The notes under the pieces: model-generated
What the model saw: only the letters and a program-made list of their open reading frames with translations
What the model was told of the DNA's origin: nothing
Database searches by the model: none
Shown: positions 7,751-58,643 of the stretch, piece by piece
Layout of the letters: each line of letters begins with the position of its first letter
Numbering within the stretch: the first letter of the stretch is position 1
NCBI GenBank assembly: GCA_903923905.1
Contig: CAIXZH010000014.1
Span: 1-64,000, forward strand
Direction: 5' to 3'
Source: an uncultured Bacteroidia bacterium
GTDB lineage: Bacteria > Bacteroidota > Bacteroidia > Bacteroidales > Prolixibacteraceae
DNA: 64,000 bases
Translations under genes and position numbers: made by a program

Positions 7751-8437
7751 TCAGATGATCAATTTATATCCTTTGCCATGGACATTGATAATCTCGATCC
7801 CTTCTTCAGATTTCAATAGTTTCCGGAGCTTGGTAATATAAACATCCATACTCCTGGCGTTAAAATAATTATCGTCTACCCATATTGTTTTAAGTGCAAA
7901 GTTTCTTTCCAGAATCTTATTGGCATTCACGCAAAGTAACTTTAGCAGATCGGCCTCCTTGGTGGTCAATTTGGTATTATCGTTCGCATCCGAAAGGGTC
8001 TGCTTACGGGCATCAAAGATGAATCGACCCAGTTTAAATACGGTCTGAGAGTTATCCCCTTCACCGCTGGTCCGCCGCAAAATAGCCTCAATCCGGAATA
8101 AAAGTTCCTCCATGCTGAATGGTTTGGTCATGTAATCGTCAGCCCCAATTTTGAAGCCTTCAATTACATCGTCCTTCATGCTTTTGGCAGTCAGAAAGAT
8201 AATCGGGATTTCGGCATTCAGCATTCTGATCTCCTTGGCCAGGGTGAATCCATCTTTTTTGGGCATCATAACATCGAAGATACACAGATCATATTGGTTT
8301 TTCTGAAATCCTTTATACGCGACTTCTCCATCCGGATATAAGTCAGTATCGTAACCTTTTGCAATAAGGTATTCTCTAAGCAGCAACCCTAGATTTTCAT
8401 CATCTTCTGCAAGAATCACTTTAGTTCTCTTTTCCAT
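7751..8437 (-). CDS. OmpR-family response regulator, RprY-like
   Basis: Response regulator of 228 aa. The receiver domain (1-120) has an acidic pocket (E11, D12, D13), phosphoacceptor D55 in CIFDVMMPKKDG, and conserved K in MTKPFSMEE. A Trans_reg_C winged helix follows (about 130-228), with LTTKEADLLKLL and a C-terminal ITKLRKLL...VHGKGYKL signature. It overlaps the start region of its kinase partner by 17 nt, so the pair is translationally coupled. RprY of Bacteroides has the same arrangement, but I cannot prove orthology from sequence alone. Confidence 0.92.
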   Translation of the reverse strand: MEKRTKVILAEDDENLGLLLREYLIAKGYDTDLYPDGEVAYKGFQKNQYDLCIFDVMMPKKDGFTLAKEIRMLNAEIPIIFLTAKSMKDDVIEGFKIGADDYMTKPFSMEELLFRIEAILRRTSGEGDNSQTVFKLGRFIFDARKQTLSDANDNTKLTTKEADLLKLLCVNANKILERNFALKTIWVDDNYFNARSMDVYITKLRKLLKSEEGIEIINVHGKGYKLII

Positions 8438-9959: not shown

Positions 9960-10363
9960 CGAAACAAAGATAAACCTATTAATGGATCAGGGGAGTTCTC
10001 CTTAACATTATTTAACTTAGGAACTTAAAAGGTTAAATAATATCAGAATAAGAATATTATATTTAATAATTATCCTGATTTTGAAAATATCCATTTCTGC
10101 TGCAACAAGAGATTTCGCATTTTTAATTGTATATGTTGCTATTTATCAGCCATCCCGATTAGGTTTAAAGTATATTTTAAAAAGAGAACCAATAATATAT
10201 TTGAAAGGTCTCGAACATACAGAGGAGGAAGAAAAAATGTCAACTGTTTTTGATTATTTTTATTCTGCATTTTTGATCTTTACCTCTTTATTTTTTAACG
10301 TTTTTTACTTTTGGGATAAGCTATAAAGTCTCCCCCTCGAACTCCCTTTCTTTAATTAGTCAT
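9960..10363. other. Intergenic stretch without a supported gene
   Basis: About 400 bp of AT-rich sequence between the kinase and the ABC-peptidase gene. One frame at 10081-10326 stays open from a TTG codon and would encode 81 aa, but it has no recognised features. No clear hairpin or terminator was seen. Confidence 0.5.
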
Positions 10364-24549: not shown

Positions 24550-24562
24550 CAATTTGTACACA
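24550..24562. other. Prophage left junction
   Basis: Host CAATT (24550-24554) is followed by the phage tip TGTACACA (24555-24562), which matches the inverted right tip. The host side is the AT-rich gap after the propeller gene (24411-24554), which holds nothing else clear. Confidence 0.8.
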
Positions 24563-25051: not shown

Positions 25052-25450
25052 TTATTTGGTCCGGATCTGTTCCTCCAGGTGGCCAATTAGTTTTGAAAGG
25101 GTTTCAATTTGTCTATCCTGGCTATCGATTAGCTTGTCTTTGACCTTACAAAGCTCACAGCTATTAGTGTCACCGGTAGTCTTATTTGTAAGATATTTTT
25201 GATAAGTCCCCAGGGCATTTTCATTATGGATCTCAGCGCGCATACTCCCTTCCCCGGTCAAGAGCCATCTTGCATCATATTGTGGATACCTTTCGATAAT
25301 TTTCGACAGCCATTTGCCACTTATTTCGGACCCACTACTCATCGATTTCGACAAAACCCCATTAGAACAGCCTATTTGACTCTCTAACGACCGAACGCTA
25401 ACGCCTTCATTATTAACTAATATAATAAGTCTGTCGGAAATTTTACTCAT
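25052..25450 (-). CDS. Phage repressor (CI-like)
   Basis: A 132-aa regulator. The N-terminal helix-turn-helix (residues 1-60) resembles Bacteroidota phage repressors: ISDRLIILVNNEGVSVRSLE, SNGVLSKS and the W-containing YPQYDARWLLTGEGSM ending. A linker and a C-terminal coiled coil with CELC follow; the coil probably dimerises the protein. There is no LexA-type peptidase domain, so induction would not be by self-cleavage. It is the only leftward gene at the left end and diverges from the early operon, the classic position of a lysogeny repressor. Confidence 0.85.
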   Translation of the reverse strand: MSKISDRLIILVNNEGVSVRSLESQIGCSNGVLSKSMSSGSEISGKWLSKIIERYPQYDARWLLTGEGSMRAEIHNENALGTYQKYLTNKTTGDTNSCELCKVKDKLIDSQDRQIETLSKLIGHLEEQIRTK

Positions 25451-30265: not shown

Positions 30266-30733
30266 ATGAAAATTAACAGGGGTAATATGAAAACAACAAC
30301 AGACCGTCAGCAGGGTTCACTGTTGAAAAAGTTTCACACGTTAAGCACAAAGGCTGGTTTAACGAATGATGAAAAGCATTTGATGGTTGCCTCATTTGGC
30401 CATGAAAGCAGCCGCGAAATGAGTATTCAGGAGCTATTAAGAGCCTGTGATCTGCTTGATGAAAAGCTTAATCCGCAGTTGGCTGAAATTGACTTATGGC
30501 GCAAACGCGTAATGGCCTCCATAGGCGGATGGCTTAGGGTAATGAGTGTTGAGAGCAATGCAAATAAAGTTAAAGCCATTGCCTGCAGGGCATCGGCCTA
30601 TGACAACTTCAACGATATTCCCAGGGAGCGCTTGATTAACCTGTATTATGCCTTTTTGAAAAAGCAAAAGGATTTTAAGCGGGTGAATACGATCGTTAAG
30701 GCGCAAATTGACGAATTAATCTATCAGAACTAA
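30266..30733 (+). CDS. GemA/gp16-like early protein (DUF1018 type)
   Basis: A 155-aa protein (148 if it starts at 30287, where AGGGG precedes the ATG). The pattern of an N-terminal helical region (LLKKFHTLSTKAGLTNDEK), MSIQELLRACDLLDE, a central basic/Trp segment and a C-terminal LYYAFLKKQKDFKRV resembles Mu gp16/GemA relatives, which sit in the same part of the early operon. The match is by layout, not by a decisive motif. GemA affects host gene expression and gyrase in Mu. Confidence 0.5.
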   Translation: MKINRGNMKTTTDRQQGSLLKKFHTLSTKAGLTNDEKHLMVASFGHESSREMSIQELLRACDLLDEKLNPQLAEIDLWRKRVMASIGGWLRVMSVESNANKVKAIACRASAYDNFNDIPRERLINLYYAFLKKQKDFKRVNTIVKAQIDELIYQN

Positions 30734-32977: not shown

Positions 32978-33256
32978 ATGGAAAGACGCTTTTTAGGCTA
33001 CCGAATCGCAAGCACTAATGCTATTAGTCGTGAACAACGTAATGAACTTTTGATCGCACGATACTACTATATGAGTGAGTTAAAGAGGCTTCGTTTTGAT
33101 GATGTGATATTTAGGCTATCCTCCACTTTTTTTATTTCGGACATTTATGTGATGAGGCTATTAAGCGCCTTGTCGGAGCAGTTTGATTTAATGAAGGCGG
33201 AACGTCCAACGCGCGAAAGCTTACGTGCAAAATGGCCAGAATGGGATTGGAATTAA
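32978..33256 (+). CDS. Hypothetical protein (92 aa)
   Basis: A 92-aa protein, 3 nt after the previous stop. It begins with a basic segment (MERRFLGYRIAS), followed by two helical regions (YYYMSELKRLRFDDVIFRLS and MRLLSALSEQFDLMK). Ends WPEWDWN. It could be a small DNA-interacting protein; no family recognised. Confidence 0.6.
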   Translation: MERRFLGYRIASTNAISREQRNELLIARYYYMSELKRLRFDDVIFRLSSTFFISDIYVMRLLSALSEQFDLMKAERPTRESLRAKWPEWDWN

Positions 33257-33614: not shown

Positions 33615-34007
33615 ATGAAATTTAACATTTACAATTCAGAGAACAGTAAGAATGCCTTTACGGGAAAATCAATGATTCGGATCTCACGTAAGGCCGGATT
33701 ATTCACCTTTAGTAAAACAGCCGGAGAGCGGATTGGGCTGAAGGAAGGCGACCGCGTAATAATTGTTCAGGATGCAGACAGCCCTGACAATTTCTATGTA
33801 CACAAAACAGCCAATCCCTCTGGTTTCAGTTTGCGGTTTAAGACAGCTAATTATGGGGCATCGTTCAATTGTGCCAAGCTGGCCGCGGTAATCCTTGACT
33901 CTACCCCTTATAAATCGGTAAGTTATATCCTTGGCAATGCCCAGGATATTGATGGCATGGCCTATCACTTGATCCAAACTTCGAAACCATTGGCCGAGAT
34001 GCTGTGA
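33615..34007 (+). CDS. Hypothetical protein with AbrB-like segment
   Basis: A 130-aa protein. Residues 22-55 read ISRKAGLFTFSKTAGERIGL followed by KEGDRVIIVQD, a swapped-hairpin-like pattern seen in SpoVT/AbrB DNA-binding proteins; the match is weak. The rest is unassigned. Its stop shares a base with the next ATG (TGATG). Confidence 0.55.
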   Translation: MKFNIYNSENSKNAFTGKSMIRISRKAGLFTFSKTAGERIGLKEGDRVIIVQDADSPDNFYVHKTANPSGFSLRFKTANYGASFNCAKLAAVILDSTPYKSVSYILGNAQDIDGMAYHLIQTSKPLAEML

Positions 34008-34231
34008 TGAAACAACAAGCATCTCGCACCAGGCGACTTGATCTAATCAATAGTATGAAGCATGGAGAGCAAAAGCGGATTGCCGCAATCTGTGGATGCT
34101 CAAGAAGCTATGTTTCCAGCGTGCTGAACGGATACCGAAATCAATCGAATGAGCTCGGCACGAATATTATACGGCTTGCGGAACGAGCAGCTGCAGACGC
34201 TTATTTTTTAAAACGCAAACAACGCTTTTGA
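34007..34231 (+). CDS. Small helix-turn-helix protein
   Basis: A 74-aa DNA-binding protein. A clear helix-turn-helix lies at about residues 17-42 (GEQKRIAAICGCSRSYVSSV, followed by LNGYRNQ), with a basic ending (FLKRKQRF). It is one of the last genes of the early operon, where Mu places its activator of middle/late transcription; this makes it my best candidate for a late-gene activator, by position only. Confidence 0.7.
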   Translation: MKQQASRTRRLDLINSMKHGEQKRIAAICGCSRSYVSSVLNGYRNQSNELGTNIIRLAERAAADAYFLKRKQRF

Positions 34232-36807: not shown

Positions 36808-38997
36808 TTAATCATCCAGGTCGTCGATATATTGTTTTGACAAATTAAGACCAAACGACAAAGCGGAATCTGAGGCGGCTTTCATCGTTGGGTTATCATC
36901 ATTGAATACCTTACCCGTCTTTCCTGAGTTATTGGCAAATTGTGCGTCAATGGACGGAAGATTCATCTCTGAAACATCGGTAGGTTTAGCGTTCGGATTG
37001 GTAACCTGGATCACATCGCAACGGCAACCCCAATCGAGCGGTGGGTAATACGTGTCCCAGAACTCATCATCCACCGGACGGATAACTCCGTTAAGCTCCG
37101 CATGTTCCTCACGGACTCGATCATCGCCAGCGGTTATAAATTCCAGGTAAGGCATTACGTCGGCATCGTCCACATAGCCTTGCCATTTGTCGGCCATCAT
37201 ACCTGAACTGGTGGAGGTGTTCCATTCCGTCTGCATCCAATTTTTATTATACTGGATATTCAAGGAGTCGACCACCTTTTTGAAGCTGGCGAACGAAAGC
37301 GGGTTCCCATCACCATCGAGCATCATGGCTTTCATGTCGTGCTGGAAATTATCGACCTTGGCCGCGCTGAACTGGTAAGCGTTTTGGATGAGTTTTTCAC
37401 CCAATGAACGCCGGTTGCTTCCAAATTCGTAATCGCCAATGGTACCATATCCCTCCTGGATGGCTTGAACCAGGCCGTCTGCTATGAGTTGCACCAAATC
37501 CTCGTCAACCACATATCCGTCCGGAAGGTTATTATCATAGATCATTTTTGCAATCCTATGGGCCTCTGTTTGAGCCTGGGATGCAAAAGCATCGATTGGA
37601 TTCTTTTTTCCTTTGAGGGTTGAAAATAAACCGGAAAGTAATGCCCCGATCTTCCCTGAAGGTTTGGCCGGGGTTGTATCTTTCTTTTTGGTTTTCGCAG
37701 GTTTATCAGGCGTTGCCACATTTGGCTCTTTGAGCGCCTGGTCGGCATTGGGTTCCAACCCGTTGTTAACTGCCTCGGCCTGATCGCCTGCCGCAAGAGC
37801 CACGGCTGCTTTGCTTGCCTCAAGTGCATCAACTGCGGCTTTTTGGTCGGCCTTAAGCTGGTCGTAATTCTCAGGCTTAGGAATATCAAACGTTTCGTAA
37901 ATGTAGTCGTCCGAAACAGGCACGCTAAGATCCATTTTAATGATCTTAATCATGTCGAGTTGAACCTTTCGGCTTAACTCCTCGGTATCCTGGTAAAAGA
38001 ATTCGCCACCGGCAACGGGGTAACCATGGAGCTCGAGCAGTTTGAAAAAGTCGTTATTCAAAACCGACATCACGTCCATGCAGTCTTCATTAAAGACGTC
38101 CTGTTCGCCGCGTTCGTGGATTTCGCCCAGCGCCCTGGCGCCCTTTGTTCCGGAGTCGGTGGTTAACACGGACCCGATAAAGATTTTAGAGATTTCGTCG
38201 TTACAGGCCGATTTTAGTGTGCTGTAAATATCGCCGGTAAGATTGCTCCCCCCTGCATCGACGGTTACGTCAGTGCCGTCGGGAAAGGCAATAAACGGAG
38301 CTCCGCCGAGATTCTCGAGCATGGTTAACAAGGCCGCTTTCCCCTGCTCATCGCTCGGGTTGTATTTTCCCTTGCGCATGGGGCGGCCAAACAATTCACC
38401 CAGCTCGGACCAGTCGCCAATGCAACCCCGTTTCCAGATCACATACTGGCCGGCAGACATGAGCAGACCAAGGTCGCGCTCACCTCCTGCCTCGATGATA
38501 TATGCCGATTCGGGAGCGCTCCGGTAATCGATCCCGGTGGTGTCGCCCTGGTTAATGGTTACTATACCAAATTCAGGAACCACATGCTTGCGCGGAATCA
38601 ACTTATAGGTTAACTTTTCGCCGGTAAAGTCAATCTGGATTAACGAGTGGCCATAGAACTTATGGTCATTGATGTCGGAGAGCATCTGCCGGAAAGCCGA
38701 AGTATTCAAAAAGTTAGTAATCTCCGGGACCTCTTCCCCGTCTTTTAAAAAGGAGATTGGCATTGCCCTGACTGCCCTTCGCCGCTTGTCGATTACAGAA
38801 TGGAGGTGCCCGTCGAGCATCAACTCTTCATAGAGATCATAAAGAATACGCCTGCGGGGTGCAATAATGCTTTCGGCAGCCATGATCGCCGTTCGCCAGG
38901 AGGCTATATCGACATTTGTCCTGAAGGTTTGCTTCAGGACCAGTTCTGTCACTTTGATGGTTCCGGGCTTTCCCGGTTTGCGGGTAATATTGGTCAT
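36808..38997 (-). CDS. Portal protein (DUF935/gp29-like) fused to MuF domain
   Basis: A 729-aa protein combining two Mu-type head proteins that are separate in Mu. Residues 1-430 are DUF935/gp29 portal: RRRILYDLYEELMLDGHLHS, HKFYGHSLIQIDF, GAPFIAFPDGTDVTV and IFIGSVLTTDSGTKGARALG. An alanine/lysine-rich linker (about 430-500) follows. Residues 500-729 are the MuF/gpF head-morphogenesis domain ending DDRVREEHAELNGV and YPPLDWGCRCDV. No frameshift or stop separates them. The fusion would supply portal and minor head protein in equal amounts. Confidence 0.9.
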   Translation of the reverse strand: MTNITRKPGKPGTIKVTELVLKQTFRTNVDIASWRTAIMAAESIIAPRRRILYDLYEELMLDGHLHSVIDKRRRAVRAMPISFLKDGEEVPEITNFLNTSAFRQMLSDINDHKFYGHSLIQIDFTGEKLTYKLIPRKHVVPEFGIVTINQGDTTGIDYRSAPESAYIIEAGGERDLGLLMSAGQYVIWKRGCIGDWSELGELFGRPMRKGKYNPSDEQGKAALLTMLENLGGAPFIAFPDGTDVTVDAGGSNLTGDIYSTLKSACNDEISKIFIGSVLTTDSGTKGARALGEIHERGEQDVFNEDCMDVMSVLNNDFFKLLELHGYPVAGGEFFYQDTEELSRKVQLDMIKIIKMDLSVPVSDDYIYETFDIPKPENYDQLKADQKAAVDALEASKAAVALAAGDQAEAVNNGLEPNADQALKEPNVATPDKPAKTKKKDTTPAKPSGKIGALLSGLFSTLKGKKNPIDAFASQAQTEAHRIAKMIYDNNLPDGYVVDEDLVQLIADGLVQAIQEGYGTIGDYEFGSNRRSLGEKLIQNAYQFSAAKVDNFQHDMKAMMLDGDGNPLSFASFKKVVDSLNIQYNKNWMQTEWNTSTSSGMMADKWQGYVDDADVMPYLEFITAGDDRVREEHAELNGVIRPVDDEFWDTYYPPLDWGCRCDVIQVTNPNAKPTDVSEMNLPSIDAQFANNSGKTGKVFNDDNPTMKAASDSALSFGLNLSKQYIDDLDD

Positions 38998-39457: not shown

Positions 39458-40975
39458 TTAATATTTTCGTGATCCTCCTTTGCGGGCACCAAGGATGACC
39501 GGCTCGGCTGAGATGGTTTTTTGATTCAGGATATAGACCCCACCCTCCACTGCATCGGGGCCGTCGATATGGCTCGTGGTGTTAGCTGCAAAGTTCCGGA
39601 ACTGATCCTCGAGACGGAGCATATGTGGATTCGATTTTTCGGCCTCGTTGAAGATGAGCCTACCCTGACGGTTTAACGGCTCAAGGTTACCCTCGATGCG
39701 TGCGAACTTATCAGGTTTTTTCCTGACATCGGGAGTGATGTGGACATAGTGGCCCCTGACTCTTCCGAAGGTGAAGAACAAAGGTTGAAAGACCTGTTCG
39801 TAAAAAGGATCCTGAAGGGAATTGTTCTCAATGTAATTAAACACCTGCGAGCGCCCTTCGACGTATTGCTCGATATCGTAATACCACTCCACAAACCGGG
39901 AATTCTTAACCTGCTCCAGGAACCCGGTCAGGATATAGAACTTCCCTTCCAGCTGGCCAACAAGGATTAATGCTTTGTAGCAATTATCCTTATTCTCTTT
40001 GTTCGAGGGTGCGGGGTCGCCGTAAGCTGCCAGAAACCTGAATTCTGAAAGTTTAGGGCATTTCCCCCACGTTACCTCCTTAAAGACTGTGCCCTGGATA
40101 ATCGGGTTATTGTAATATTCCTTTTGAACGGAGTTGTATGAAATCTTTGAGAGGAGCCAATCAATATGCTCCTCCGTGTTTTTATCGCGCCAGGTGGATT
40201 TGCCATTTTTGTCACGTATGTTAACGGTATCGACGTGGTCAGCCTTTTCGCTTGAGCGGGCTATGATGCTATTTTTTGATATCAGGTTTCCCTGGAAGAT
40301 GATCCTTACATTTCCGGAAACGGAAACGGTGGGGATGAGTGCCTGTTCGACCCAGTCCCATGTATCTGACACCCGCTTTTCATTTCGGCACCGCTCGTCC
40401 GTATCTATATCGTCAATTCGGATCACATCCGGACGGACGGCTTCGTTTCGCGTTCCACGCGGACTTTGACCTGCACCTATTGCGCGGAAGCTACAGGATT
40501 GACGTGTAACAAAATCGCCCATTTCCCACTGGCGGAAACCTCGCTGGAGACCGTAATCACTAATCAGCCTGGCATTGCTCTCCAGGTTAATCATGTAGGG
40601 CATTAATAGTTCCTCCGCGTTGTCATAAGTATGTGATACCAGGAGAAAGTTACGGGCCCGATTAGTCATAGCCATATAAAGATCCTCCATCATCCCCCGG
40701 GTAGACTTAGCGAGTTCACGACTCCAGCGCCGTACTTCATACCAGCGGCTATTTTTTAAAAGCCGGTCGGTAGCTTTGCGATGAAAGGGTGCAGAAGGGC
40801 TTGAGTAATATGCCGGGAAATAATAGGCAAACCAACTCTCGGAGTTTTTCTCAAGTTTGGCAATGCGAGCCCGGCGGGTAATTTCGTCCTCCAAGGGCAG
40901 CGGAGTACTGCGCATCAAGTTATCGCGGTAGGCTTCCCAACGTTCGATCTGATCTTTGGTGGATTTTACTGCCAT
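39458..40975 (-). CDS. Large terminase subunit (gp28-like)
   Basis: DNA-packaging ATPase/nuclease, 505 aa. The N-terminal ATPase has an atypical P-loop region (WSRELAKSTRGMMEDLY) and Walker B-like DVIRIDDIDTDERC. The C-terminal nuclease domain has an acidic first element FLAAYGDPAPS and later ITGFLEQV and LIFNEAEKSNPHML. The pattern matches Mu gp28/Terminase_6 proteins. In Mu-type phages, packaging is of headful type from integrated copies. It is 11 nt downstream of the small subunit gene. Confidence 0.88.
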   Translation of the reverse strand: MAVKSTKDQIERWEAYRDNLMRSTPLPLEDEITRRARIAKLEKNSESWFAYYFPAYYSSPSAPFHRKATDRLLKNSRWYEVRRWSRELAKSTRGMMEDLYMAMTNRARNFLLVSHTYDNAEELLMPYMINLESNARLISDYGLQRGFRQWEMGDFVTRQSCSFRAIGAGQSPRGTRNEAVRPDVIRIDDIDTDERCRNEKRVSDTWDWVEQALIPTVSVSGNVRIIFQGNLISKNSIIARSSEKADHVDTVNIRDKNGKSTWRDKNTEEHIDWLLSKISYNSVQKEYYNNPIIQGTVFKEVTWGKCPKLSEFRFLAAYGDPAPSNKENKDNCYKALILVGQLEGKFYILTGFLEQVKNSRFVEWYYDIEQYVEGRSQVFNYIENNSLQDPFYEQVFQPLFFTFGRVRGHYVHITPDVRKKPDKFARIEGNLEPLNRQGRLIFNEAEKSNPHMLRLEDQFRNFAANTTSHIDGPDAVEGGVYILNQKTISAEPVILGARKGGSRKY

Positions 40976-40986
40976 TTTAAACCTGT

Positions 40987-41457
40987 TTAAATGTTCCTTA
41001 ATTGCTCTTTAATGAAGGCATCCTGCAGCTCTACCATTTTCTTAGAGAGGCTAAAATCAGCGTCCCTAAGCCAATTGCCGAACTTGATAAACACATCGAT
41101 ATAGATCGAGATTGATAGCTCCGTTTCCAGGGCTTTAGCAGTAGCAGCAAGTTTTGAAAGAGTGTCTGCCTCTTTGGATTGGATCAGGCGAACTACATGC
41201 GTACCTTCAAGATCGTTACCCTCTAGGGAGTCGAATATTTGGTTGATTTGCGCATAGGTTCTACTGAGTGTCTCCTGGCGGCTGATTACGAAATTTGCCT
41301 TTAAACTCTCCCAATTGCCGTCGGCCTTCCATTTGGTAATTGTCTGCGCTGAGGTACCTACACGGGACGCAATTTCGGCCTGTGAAAGGTTGTCCTTGAG
41401 ATATAACATGCGCGCATAATCTTTACGCATGGTCATGGTCGTTTCGCTCTTTGCCAT
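40987..41457 (-). CDS. Small terminase subunit-like (gp27/DUF1804)
   Basis: A 156-aa protein heading the minus-strand packaging operon. A helix-turn-helix lies at about residues 18-45 (NLSQAEIASRVGTSAQTITK followed by WKADGNW), then a helical oligomerisation region (LSKLAATAKALETELSISIY). This fits the DUF1804/small-terminase family of Mu-like phages, which recognise DNA for packaging. Confidence 0.78.
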   Translation of the reverse strand: MAKSETTMTMRKDYARMLYLKDNLSQAEIASRVGTSAQTITKWKADGNWESLKANFVISRQETLSRTYAQINQIFDSLEGNDLEGTHVVRLIQSKEADTLSKLAATAKALETELSISIYIDVFIKFGNWLRDADFSLSKKMVELQDAFIKEQLRNI

Positions 41458-41479
41458 CGCTGGTGGTTTTAATGTATCA

Positions 41480-41510
41480 CAAACTTACACCTTACCCCTT
41501 TGAGTGACAA
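41480..41510 (-). promoter_or_regulatory. Leftward late promoter (packaging operon)
   Basis: Read on the minus strand: TTG at 41508-41510, 20-nt spacer, TAAGTTTG at 41480-41487, matching the Bacteroidetes consensus in both boxes. Predicted start is about 41474, 17 nt before the small terminase ATG. Confidence 0.68.
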
Positions 41511-41525
41511 TTCGAATTTTTCTGT

Positions 41526-41582
41526 TGTGCGCGACCCGGTAAAATTATCCTGTACGCTGCGAATTTTACCGTGTAGCGCACA
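41526..41582. promoter_or_regulatory. Composite dyad between divergent late promoters
   Basis: A two-part inverted repeat: TGTGCGC (41526-41532) with GCGCACA (41576-41582), and GTAAAATT (41539-41546) with AATTTTAC (41562-41569). Gaps are 6 nt on both sides, so the two pairs share one centre at 41554. The element lies 15-16 bp from the -33 boxes of both divergent promoters. This position suits an activator-binding site controlling both late arms. Confidence 0.7.
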
Positions 41583-41596
41583 CCAGTATTATCTGA

Positions 41597-41628
41597 TTTG
41601 CAGAGCGCATGAATAAGTTGAAAATTTG
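41597..41628 (+). promoter_or_regulatory. Rightward late promoter (capsid/tail operon)
   Basis: TTTG (41597-41600), a 20-nt spacer, and AAAATTTG (41621-41628), one mismatch from TAnnTTTG. The weaker -7 box would fit dependence on an activator. Predicted start is about 41635, a leader of about 32 nt. Confidence 0.6.
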
Positions 41629-41666
41629 CATGAACGTAATCGCAGACACTCTTAATTACTTTAACT

Positions 41667-42776
41667 ATGTGGGGAGACATCTACATTTATAAGCCGATCG
41701 GACCACGCGACGGTGACGATGATAACGATGATCAGGTGATCACCGCTGGAGACATACAAAGCCAATTAGACTGGTGCGACGGGGATACCGTAACCGTACA
41801 CGTTAATTGTCCGGGAGGATCCTACTTTGAAGGGCTCGCCATCTTCCAGGCACTGAATACCTGTGAGAAAAAAGTTATTGTCAAAGTTGAAGGGATTGCC
41901 GCGAGCATGGCCAGCATCATCATACTTGCTGCGGATGAAATTGTGTTGTCGCCCTTTGCGCGGATTATGACTCACTGCATTCAGGGTACCAGTAACGGAA
42001 ATGCTTCGCAATTGCGCGCTGATGCTACCGAAATGGAAAATTTTGAAGGGTCGATGCTCGCCATCTATTCTGCTCGAACCGGACTCACCACGGAGGAATG
42101 CAGGGTGAAATTTATGAGCGATACCGACACTTGGTTCACTGCCGAGGAGGCTATTGCCGCCAAATTGGCCGATCGCATCGAAATGGGGAAATTGACCGCC
42201 AATATAGGCCGGGCGAATGATAACTTACCCCTGCGAGCCATCGCCCTATACCAATCCATGGCCGCATTATTAATTGTACCCAATCAATCAAAAGATATGG
42301 ATTTTCTGAAAATTAAAAACCAATTCCAACTCAGCGACGATGTTACTGAGGATGCCTTCCTTGCCCAGGTCGAGGGATGGCGGACAAAAGCCACCGAAGT
42401 GGAGCAGCTTACCGCTCAGCTCGACGGCTTTAAAACTGCTGCTGCACTAGCCGAGACCGCCCGCGTTGATGGGCTGATTGCTCAGGCTGTGAATGAAAAA
42501 CGGATTGTCGCATCACAAAAGGAGATGTGGAAATCGCTCTTTGCTGCCAATGCCGAGAATGCCGAAAAGGCGTTGATGGGTATTGCACCTGCTAAGGACC
42601 TTTCGAATATTAGTTCGACTTCGCTCAGTGGCAAGCTCAGCGAGAGGGATGAACTGACAAAACTGAGCTTCGACCAGATGGATCGCGGGAATAAGCTCGA
42701 GCATGTCCGCGCCCAATATTATGACTTGTACGAGGCCAAATTCGAAGAGAAATTCGGAAAGAAACCGGCGAAATAA
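41667..42776 (+). CDS. ClpP-like head maturation protease with scaffold domain
   Basis: A 369-aa protein. The N-terminal S14/ClpP-type protease has Ser80 in VEGIAASMAS, His103 in FARIMTHCIQ, and an aspartate near D154 (SDTDTWFTAEEA); the oxyanion element is VNCPGGSYFEGL. From about residue 210 a helical scaffold-like region follows (FLKIKNQFQLSDDVTEDAFL, VEQLTAQLDGFKTAAALAE). Protease and scaffold are thus in one chain, as in many tailed phages. It is expected to cleave the scaffold during head assembly. First gene of the rightward late operon. Confidence 0.9.
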   Translation: MWGDIYIYKPIGPRDGDDDNDDQVITAGDIQSQLDWCDGDTVTVHVNCPGGSYFEGLAIFQALNTCEKKVIVKVEGIAASMASIIILAADEIVLSPFARIMTHCIQGTSNGNASQLRADATEMENFEGSMLAIYSARTGLTTEECRVKFMSDTDTWFTAEEAIAAKLADRIEMGKLTANIGRANDNLPLRAIALYQSMAALLIVPNQSKDMDFLKIKNQFQLSDDVTEDAFLAQVEGWRTKATEVEQLTAQLDGFKTAAALAETARVDGLIAQAVNEKRIVASQKEMWKSLFAANAENAEKALMGIAPAKDLSNISSTSLSGKLSERDELTKLSFDQMDRGNKLEHVRAQYYDLYEAKFEEKFGKKPAK

Positions 42777-42805: not shown

Positions 42806-43870
42806 ATGAAAAAAATTGCATCCCTTTTAGTAGCCATTTTGTTTATAGCCATTTCAGCCACGGTTCTTGGCGCCGTGACGGGCATTGCCCCTGTTTACCT
42901 ATTTGCGGGTTTAACCGCATCATCCTTTATTCCTATGCCATCCGGAATATCGCTAATGGCTATTCAAAAGGAAATCTGGATTAACGACATTGTCGCCAAC
43001 CTTTTCAAGGCGAATCCCCACCTGAGTCACGCAGTGAATGCAGACGCCTTTGTCTATAATGGCAAAGTAGTTCACATTCCCAATGCGGGAACCAAGCCGC
43101 TTGTTACGAAGAATAGATCCTCATTCCCTGCAACTGTAATTACACGGACAGATAATGATATCACCTTTTCGCTGGATGAGTTCTCCTCAGATCCTATCAA
43201 GATCGCCAACGCTGATAAATATGAATTATCGTATGACAAGCGCGCAAGTGTAATGGGAGAGCAAAGCGCCGCAATTGCCGAGACAGTTGGCGATTGGTTT
43301 TACTATTACTGGTCGCCTTCTGCCGCCGGATCGTTATTGCGCACCACAGGTGCTAATGTTACCGCCCATATTGGTACGGGTAATCGGATGCTGATCCAGC
43401 TTGCCGACGTGAAACAAATGGCGAAGGCCATGGACCGGCTAAGCATTCCTCAGGACGGACGTTATGCCGCCTTGGATGCAGATATGTATGCTCAGTTTAC
43501 CGATATTTTGTCGGCGACCCAATACCGCGATTTTTCGGCTGCGTTTAATCCCGAAACAGGAGTTGTAGGCAAACTCTTTGGATTCACCTTCCTGGCTCCA
43601 AGGGCAAACGTATTGTGCTACAATAATGCAACGACACCTGTTGTTTATGATCCGTCCCAAACTCCAACAGCCGCCACCGCAATGGCAGCGGGCTTATTCT
43701 GGCATCAGGATTCCGTAATCAGAGCATTGGGTCAAAACGACTTCTTCGAGCACATTGCTTCCCCGTTGTATTATGGAGATATCTATTCGGTACTCGTTCG
43801 TGCAGGTGGACGTATCCGCAGAAATGATGCAGCCGGCGTGATTGCCCTAGTACAAGCTTTAGGCGTTTAA
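42806..43870 (+). CDS. Major capsid protein with hydrophobic N-terminal extension
   Basis: Major capsid protein of 354 aa, HK97-like in position and look (after the protease; NADAFVYNGKVVHIPNAG, PIKIANADKYELSYDKRASV, ALDADMYAQFTDILSATQYR). The N-terminal 50 residues are very hydrophobic (MKKIASLLVAILFIAISATV, then GAVTGIAPVYLFAGL), like a signal peptide plus membrane segment. A canonical-looking capsid start, MAIQKEIWINDIV, occurs at residue 51 (ATG at 42956). Either the extension is removed or embedded during assembly, or an internal start is used. Confidence 0.85.
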   Translation: MKKIASLLVAILFIAISATVLGAVTGIAPVYLFAGLTASSFIPMPSGISLMAIQKEIWINDIVANLFKANPHLSHAVNADAFVYNGKVVHIPNAGTKPLVTKNRSSFPATVITRTDNDITFSLDEFSSDPIKIANADKYELSYDKRASVMGEQSAAIAETVGDWFYYYWSPSAAGSLLRTTGANVTAHIGTGNRMLIQLADVKQMAKAMDRLSIPQDGRYAALDADMYAQFTDILSATQYRDFSAAFNPETGVVGKLFGFTFLAPRANVLCYNNATTPVVYDPSQTPTAATAMAAGLFWHQDSVIRALGQNDFFEHIASPLYYGDIYSVLVRAGGRIRRNDAAGVIALVQALGV

Positions 43871-58548: not shown

Positions 58549-58638
58549 ATTGCAAATGTAGATTTTTAAAGGGATTTTAAAAATGAGTATTTGTGCGTGT
58601 GTAGTTAATTATTGAACAATTCGTTTTAGATTTGTGTA
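58549..58638. repeat. Prophage right-end region
   Basis: 90 bp from the pseudoknot element to the right tip. An ATTTTTAAA inverted pair lies at 58562-58570 and 58576-58584, and ACAATTCG occurs twice (58616-58623 and 58638-58645), the second copy spanning the junction. No gene. Likely contains the right transposase-binding sites. Confidence 0.5.
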
Positions 58639-58643
58639 CAATT
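58634..58643. other. Prophage right junction
   Basis: The phage tip GTGTACA (58634-58640) is inverted relative to the left tip. CAATT (58639-58643) repeats the left flank, so the first two bases could be phage or host. Confidence 0.8.

Follow-up and report, generated by a model that had tools for sequence, protein, structure and literature searches.

The first 64,000 nucleotides of contig CAIXZH010000014.1 (assembly GCA_903923905.1, from an uncultured member of the Prolixibacteraceae), the 64-kb window analyzed here, contain a Mu-like prophage at approximately 24.5 to 58.7 kb. Within this prophage, packaging genes run leftward from position 41457 and protease and capsid genes run rightward from 41667, and the subject of this report is the gap between these two late arms. 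Profile matches identify the first gene of the leftward arm as encoding a TerS-like DNA-binding protein with a helix-turn-helix (HTH)-like character (DUF1804; 40987 to 41457, minus strand) and the first gene of the rightward arm as encoding a ClpP-type head maturation protease (41667 to 42776, plus strand). The features described below suggest that the gap is probably a bidirectional late control region, with one operator shared by both arms.

Two promoter-like sites of the Bacteroidetes type face outward in the gap, and every box named in an initial annotation of this DNA was found where it had been placed. Promoters recognized by the Bacteroidetes primary sigma factor, sigma-ABfr, are described in the available text of one study as having TAnnTTTG at −7 and TTTG near −33 (PMC7366714). 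The leftward promoter has a −7 box that fits this consensus (TAAGTTTG; 41480 to 41487, minus strand) and a −33 box of TTG (41508 to 41510, minus strand), and the rightward promoter has a −33 box of TTTG (41597 to 41600, plus strand) and a −7 box, AAAATTTG (41621 to 41628, plus strand), that differs from consensus in being AAnnTTTG. Both promoters have 20-nucleotide (nt) spacers. A generic sigma-70 promoter scan returned one site, a chance-level result, as would be expected in the Bacteroidota.

A dyad, the proposed operator, occupies the center of the gap (41522 to 41586), with 25-bp arms in which 22 of 25 positions pair, a 15-nt center, and an axis at 41554, where the initial annotation had also centered it. 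The core (41526 to 41582) reads TGTGCGC-N5-GGTAAAATT-N15-AATTTTACC-N5-GCGCACA; its inner arm has a length of 9 bp (the initial annotation gave 1 bp less), and it ends 15 and 14 bp short of the −33 boxes rather than 15 to 16 bp. Symmetry extends beyond the dyad, as the gap is quasi-palindromic from −7 box to −7 box, with 67-nt arms scoring 23 compared to a maximum of 14 in 2,000 dinucleotide shuffles. The stretch between the −33 boxes alone scored 19 (maximum of 12 in 2,000 dinucleotide shuffles). When three mismatches were allowed, the composite half-site occurred at two places in 64 kb, both in the gap (0.75 expected), and TGTGCGC was absent from the rest of the window. A search of the host genome with the whole gap matched only the gap itself. 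This symmetry is not due to chance. Because the dyad is upstream of both −33 boxes, and hence outside both predicted transcripts, a role as an attenuator or terminator is unlikely.

A TerS-based search matched 6 of 140 genomes from the family (own genome included, three matches weak), a class-wide search with the terminase large subunit (TerL) at an E value of 1e-120 matched 5 of 395 genomes, one of them new, and a protease-based scan of genome contigs found no relative. Four distinct relatives carrying the gap came from IMG/VR: L016 (represented by three contigs whose gap letters agree), L019, L020, and L012. Their TerS proteins are 94%, 90%, 75%, and 77% identical to the window protein, respectively. 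Alignment of this clade of five revealed conserved promoter boxes flanking a diverged center. The leftward −7 box TAAGTTTG and the sequence CAAACTTA were kept in all five members, as was the rightward −33 sequence GATTTGCAG; the leftward −33 flank was CAATTCG in four members and CAATCCG in L012, and the rightward −7 box was AAAATTTG or AAATTTTG in all five, always with a first base that departs from TAnnTTTG. Listed as window, L016, L019, L020, and L012, distances between −33 boxes were 89, 89, 90, 89, and 89 bp, and distances between −7 boxes were 134, 134, 135, 134, and 134 bp.

The dyad behaved differently from the boxes. The outer TGTGCGC arms were absent from all four relatives, and literal conservation of the dyad was rejected, as its letters differ among the relatives. 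What persisted was resemblance of the two arms to each other, with arm-to-arm identities of 0.69, 0.62, 0.57, 0.62, and 0.61 (order as above) and P values for arm likeness of 0.0005, 0.008, 0.047, 0.14, and 0.02, above chance in four of the five phages. The left arm of the window is at most 0.56 identical to the left arm of any relative, i.e., it is closer to its own right arm (0.69). This clade keeps its geometry while the letters change, and the two arms tend to stay alike. The initial annotation had expected both dyad and spacing to be kept in related prophages while the flanks drift, and it regarded dyad loss in close relatives as evidence against its proposal; spacing was indeed kept, the letters showed the reverse pattern (boxes kept, dyad changed), and although the literal dyad was lost, arm likeness on the same axis survived. 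The broader claim of symmetric divergent promoters about one axis held in these relatives, which share the gene order, and the layout recurred in many distant phages.

That wider class was collected with terminase searches. Of 393 genomes from the order, 47 (own genome included) contained relatives, and the searches also yielded 54 phage records, hankyphages and Porphyromonas gingivalis phages among them. In IMG/VR, one scan returned 14 loci, and another was represented by the best 80 of at least 508; in 68 of these best 80 loci, a rule based on open reading frames (ORFs) detected the divergent TerS-gap-protease layout. Combining these 68 gaps with 24 found earlier gave 92, of which the 83 with lengths of 90 to 260 bp were kept and 9 outside this range were dropped, and blastn grouping produced 60 clusters. 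TerS start codons were re-chosen in 7 gaps.

Across the 60 gaps, an inverted repeat was significant in 26 at P < 0.05, where 3 were expected, and in 16 at P < 0.01, with each gap shuffled 500 times. At these two thresholds, coding segments taken from those loci gave 4/60 and 0/60, and a small set of divergent gaps from host genomes gave 1/14 and 0/14. The axis fell at 0.4 to 0.6 of the gap length in 21 of 24 significant gaps (200 shuffles), compared to a null fraction of 0.38, with some of these central cases being trivial (for example, in L031 the arms are the −7 boxes). In 13 of the 60 gaps, direct repeats at a distance of exactly 21 bp were above the 99th percentile; shuffled gaps reached at most 6 at any distance, and coding segments gave 0/60 at 21 bp and up to 5/60 at another distance (57 bp). 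This 21-bp signal had first been marginal in a set of 19 distant gaps (sum of z scores of 16.6; shuffle 95th percentile, 15.2, and 99th percentile, 17.2), and 9 of the 13 gaps with 21-bp repeats belong to the 41 clusters outside that set. The motif AAGGGTT was present in 13 of 60 gaps, with 1.9 expected. A self-match at 28 bp corresponds to the distance from the −33 TTTG to the −7 TTTG, and is read as promoter boxes, not operator. As separate observations, the gaps of L150, L098, L100, and L126 have near-perfect short-loop palindromes between divergent late genes, and the gap of L026 (G305:C71), also between divergent late genes, has head-to-tail 21-bp units containing CCAAGGGTTGAAT.

Promoter positions followed a similar interval. 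An nAnnTTTG box was present on both sides in 24 of the 60 gaps, and when the outermost box pair was used in each, −7 to −7 distances were 67 to 68 bp (2 gaps), 74 to 75 bp (4 gaps), 95 to 96 bp (3 gaps), 116 to 120 bp (12 gaps), and 134 to 137 bp (3 gaps). These distances are periodic at 21 to 22 bp, and none of 3,000 simulated sets was as strongly periodic over periods of 8 to 30 bp. Over all 60 gaps, the leftward nAnnTTTG box was enriched, with a frequency of 0.77 versus 0.20 in shuffles. The observation is real and is part of an architecture wider than a single gap.

Two families of small proteins emerged as candidates for reading these repeats. The first, called RYYY here, is represented in the window by a 92-amino-acid (aa) protein predicted to be all-helical (32978 to 33256, plus strand), which matches the profile of phrog_17154 and is a candidate late regulator. 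A phrog_17154 protein is common to the window, a hankyphage, and a P. gingivalis phage (one record each). An AlphaFold2 model of the RYYY protein was all-helical and confident (predicted local distance difference test score [pLDDT], 84; predicted template modeling score [pTM], 0.74). A scan of IMG/VR kept 80 RYYY loci, many of them close relatives, and a simple rule recovered the ORF in 60. In 41 of these 60, an ORF of at least 100 aa on the opposite strand lay −22 to +46 bp from the end of the RYYY gene; 16 had such an ORF farther off and 3 had none. This end position is as expected of the last gene before a convergent late arm, with the neighbor identified as an ORF only. In the window, other genes separate the RYYY gene from the convergent late arm. 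Database labels for these genes varied. In hankyphage L068 (PV107406.1), the phrog_17154 protein (7962 to 8231) is labeled "transposase," yet it has 89 aa and lies at the end of the rightward middle genes. In the P. gingivalis transposable phage L069 (BK068095.1), the RYYY gene (10063 to 10302, plus strand) is unannotated, and a 93-bp gene on the opposite strand (10116 to 10208) is annotated instead.

The second family, AYN, consists of proteins of 65 to 94 aa with a helix motif near IS-x-x-T, and was found by reading the middle genes of 20 phages, mostly picked for 21-bp or inverted repeats. Neither Pfam nor PHROGs offered a name for either family beyond the "unknown function" of phrog_17154. 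Homology between RYYY and AYN was considered and rejected, as profile comparison was unsupportive (probability of 1.9%, E value of 0.026) and aligned only the helix motif.

No phage contig in these data carried both families. Of the 54 phage records, 18 matched RYYY, 17 of them on the phage contig (the G072 match is on another contig), and 30 matched AYN, 28 of them on the phage contig (the G151 and G456 matches are on other contigs). In a further 27 records, RYYY was detected in 5 (using a broader profile, A5), AYN in 11, and both in none. For all 81 records, which include some close relatives, some fragments, and the ten AYN and three RYYY records that supplied the profiles, RYYY was present in 22, AYN in 39, and both on one phage contig in 0 (hypergeometric probability, 1.4e-8; 0.054 for the second set of 27 alone). 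Family membership was also linked to repeat spacing. Using a 98th-percentile threshold (99th in the 60-gap survey), 21-bp repeats were present in 12 of the 23 AYN gaps and in none of the 14 RYYY gaps (Fisher test, 9e-4), and 22-bp repeats were present in 4 of the 14 RYYY gaps and in none of the 23 AYN gaps (Fisher test, 0.015). This comparison left out redundant records (L016, L138, L004, and L117), records with too short a gap (L147, L102, and L111), and one with no gap (L148). The link was noticed before being tested, and shared descent may be part of it.

A third protein, a 75-aa HTH protein with weak HTH matches (34004 to 34231, plus strand), had been considered the best candidate activator in the initial annotation. 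Its family was matched in 10 of 54 related records at an E value of ≤0.01 and in six at an E value of <1e-6; three of these six supplied the profile, and the six are spread over both regulator classes. No match was present in one hankyphage record and one P. gingivalis phage record. By distribution the HTH protein is weaker, and the RYYY gene at 32978 appears to be a better fit.

These data lead us to propose that the gap probably contains a shared operator through which one late regulator of the phage controls both arms. In this model, the middle operon would encode a small DNA-binding protein that occupies the central repeats, in an array on the symmetry axis that is either symmetric or spaced by two turns, and that acts on RNA polymerase at both promoters simultaneously. 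Packaging genes (leftward) and capsid/tail genes (rightward) would thereby start together. We tentatively prefer the 92-aa RYYY product (32978 to 33256) as this protein, at somewhat less than even confidence, and consider the HTH protein at 34004 an unlikely second candidate. As for the single activator of both arms suggested in the initial annotation, we infer activation rather than repression because late genes need turning on, and from P2 and Mu. Extended to Bacteroidota Mu-like phages as a class, we judge it an evenly balanced proposition that these phages share a bidirectional late switch in which geometry is conserved and sequence is not. In such a switch, outward promoters would be placed around a central array in steps of about 21 bp (two turns), and this array would be read by one of two mutually exclusive families of small, previously undescribed HTH-like proteins, RYYY (22-bp repeats or a dyad) or AYN (21-bp repeats, often with an AAGGGTT core).

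Several results weigh against this proposal. The rightward promoter is the weaker half of the pattern, as the window −7 box lacks the first T of TAnnTTTG, and an intact rightward nAnnTTTG box occurred at just twice the shuffle rate over the 60 gaps (0.45 versus 0.23). In the close clade, the arm test for L020 gave a P value of 0.14, and the ungapped inverted repeat in L019 gave a P value of 0.93. A 21-bp repeat was also present in 1 of 14 host divergent gaps, the hankyphage gap has no significant inverted repeat or 20- to 23-bp repeat, and the lineages compared are not fully independent. Concerning the regulators, 20 of 81 records have neither family, the window gap itself lacks a 22-bp repeat, and just 5 of 14 RYYY gaps have an inverted repeat at P < 0.05, with the arms in L030 and L031 being the −7 boxes. 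Foldseek with the RYYY model returned no significant match (best E value, 1.7), the best rows including several DNA-binding domains. Finally, the single comparable close pair favors the HTH protein over RYYY. Between the window and the L016 phage (contig L061), whose dyads differ, the HTH protein shows 86% identity with changes in its recognition segment, which would suit the changed dyad, and the helix segment of RYYY shows almost no change.

In addition to the protease, the gene set of the Mu-like prophage includes a transposase (phrog_310), MuB (phrog_296), a Mu-type portal fused to a Mu F-like protein (36808 to 38997, minus strand; Portal_Mu E value, 2e-66, and Phage_Mu_F E value, 4e-13), TerL (39458 to 40975, minus strand; phrog_38 E value, 2e-58), and the major capsid protein (42806 to 43870, plus strand; phrog_267). 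A protein of the early/middle operon (30266 to 30733) matches the Mu GemA family weakly, with a score below the cutoff. A possible mark of the prophage ends is a 9-bp inverted match, TTGTACACA, at 24554 to 24562 and 58633 to 58641; inspection by eye revealed no clean target duplication at these tentative ends.

The main rival explanation is that the dyad is the operator of a repressor, either CI-like (25052 to 25450) or late and self-limiting, that silences both late arms in the prophage. Symmetric operators are typical of CI-like repressors. In a hankyphage, silencing a CI-like repressor raises most phage genes, according to the text available from that study (PMC12135933). A CI-type operator would also be expected at the repressor and early region, yet the composite half-site (three mismatches) is found only in the gap, and the dyad sites are upstream of the −33 boxes rather than overlapping them. 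We consider a repressor operator unlikely.

A less probable alternative is that the symmetry is a mutational by-product with no protein reader, in which template switching perfects quasi-palindromes and slippage gives 21-bp repeats. Template switching would also make the window arms more alike than the window left arm is to the left arm of any relative, as observed. This explanation does not account for the central axis (21/24), the favored repeat distances of 21 or 22 bp, the association of spacing with family, or the steps in promoter distance, and coding segments of the same loci show no excess of repeats.

The gap could also be a central topological site that helps prophage ends meet, a counterpart of the strong gyrase site (SGS) of Mu. 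It adjoins the protease gene, which we take to be the counterpart of Mu I. The Mu SGS is described as lying near genes G and I at the genome center, and as having one essential arm, not a symmetric dyad, in the available portions of PMC10052514. With the tentative prophage ends, the dyad axis would be offset from the prophage center by about 43 bp. In one P. gingivalis phage record, the gap sits about 49% of the way along; centrality in the window depends on those tentative ends, though, and in a 42.8-kb hankyphage record the gap sits at about 40%, as estimated from where TerL lies. A topological site also predicts neither mirror promoters nor 21-bp promoter spacing, making this alternative very unlikely. 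Least credible is binding of the gap by TerS for self-regulation or DNA packing, which the adjoining, HTH-like TerS would allow, since TerS is 94% identical in the window and L016 phages though their dyads differ, Mu-type packaging starts at a phage end, and the association of AYN and RYYY with repeat spacing would be left unexplained.

Late control regions of the kind proposed here resemble those of P2 and Mu in different respects. In P2, the PP and PO operons diverge, with terminase and portal genes on one side and protease and capsid genes on the other, and the same functions are divided between divergent operons in this prophage. The P2 promoters PP and PO, which are activated by Ogr and control the PQ and ONMLKRS operons, have dyad sites of the form TGT-N12-ACA. 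For Smp131, a P2-like phage, the predicted PP′ and PO′ sites share coordinates on opposite strands, which amounts to one dyad proposed for both arms (available text of PMC3931495). A single dyad for two divergent late promoters therefore has precedent. Unlike P2, the gap lacks TGT-N12-ACA (found in 4 of 60 gaps versus 3.3 expected, no excess), and a six-frame search of 24501 to 58700 detected no Ogr CX2CX22CX4C motif. The dyad here is larger, or is replaced by 21- or 22-bp arrays in related phages, and the promoters are of the Bacteroidota type.

The likeness to Mu lies in the transposase, MuB, portal, and F proteins, and in the rightward promoter preceding the protease gene, as PI does in the Mu gene order. 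In contrast to Mu, the packaging arm here reads the opposite way. Mu late promoters lys, I, P, and mom are activated by C, as described in the text available from PMC4461284. The Mor/C Pfam family was not matched by any of the 26 window proteins scanned, a set that includes 17 middle-region proteins (E value of 0.001 or 0.1). Late control by Mu C or Mor uses an activator site just upstream of the −35 element; in the window, the core dyad edges are at distances of 15 and 14 bp from the −33 boxes.

Closest in organization are the hankyphages and the P. gingivalis transposable phages, which have the same divergent TerS/protease layout, a RYYY gene (one record each), and gaps of 163 bp (hankyphage) and 95 bp (P. 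gingivalis phage) whose central letters differ from those of the window. Late-promoter mapping was not seen in the available text for hankyphage (PMC12135933) or P. gingivalis phages (PMC10367356), and late control in transposable phages of the Bacteroidota, hankyphages included, was not found described in the parts of the open-license literature that were searched. Divergent late promoters under shared control are of an already known kind, and the novel part is the reading with two families and 21- or 22-bp spacing. The geometry yields predictions about the start points of the late promoters and the sequence that a regulator would read, and it points to two protein families for testing, of which one, phrog_17154, has no assigned function. 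Hankyphage assembly was not completed in the laboratory, for reasons described as yet unknown in the available text of PMC12135933, and a named candidate late regulator makes one explanation of this failure testable.

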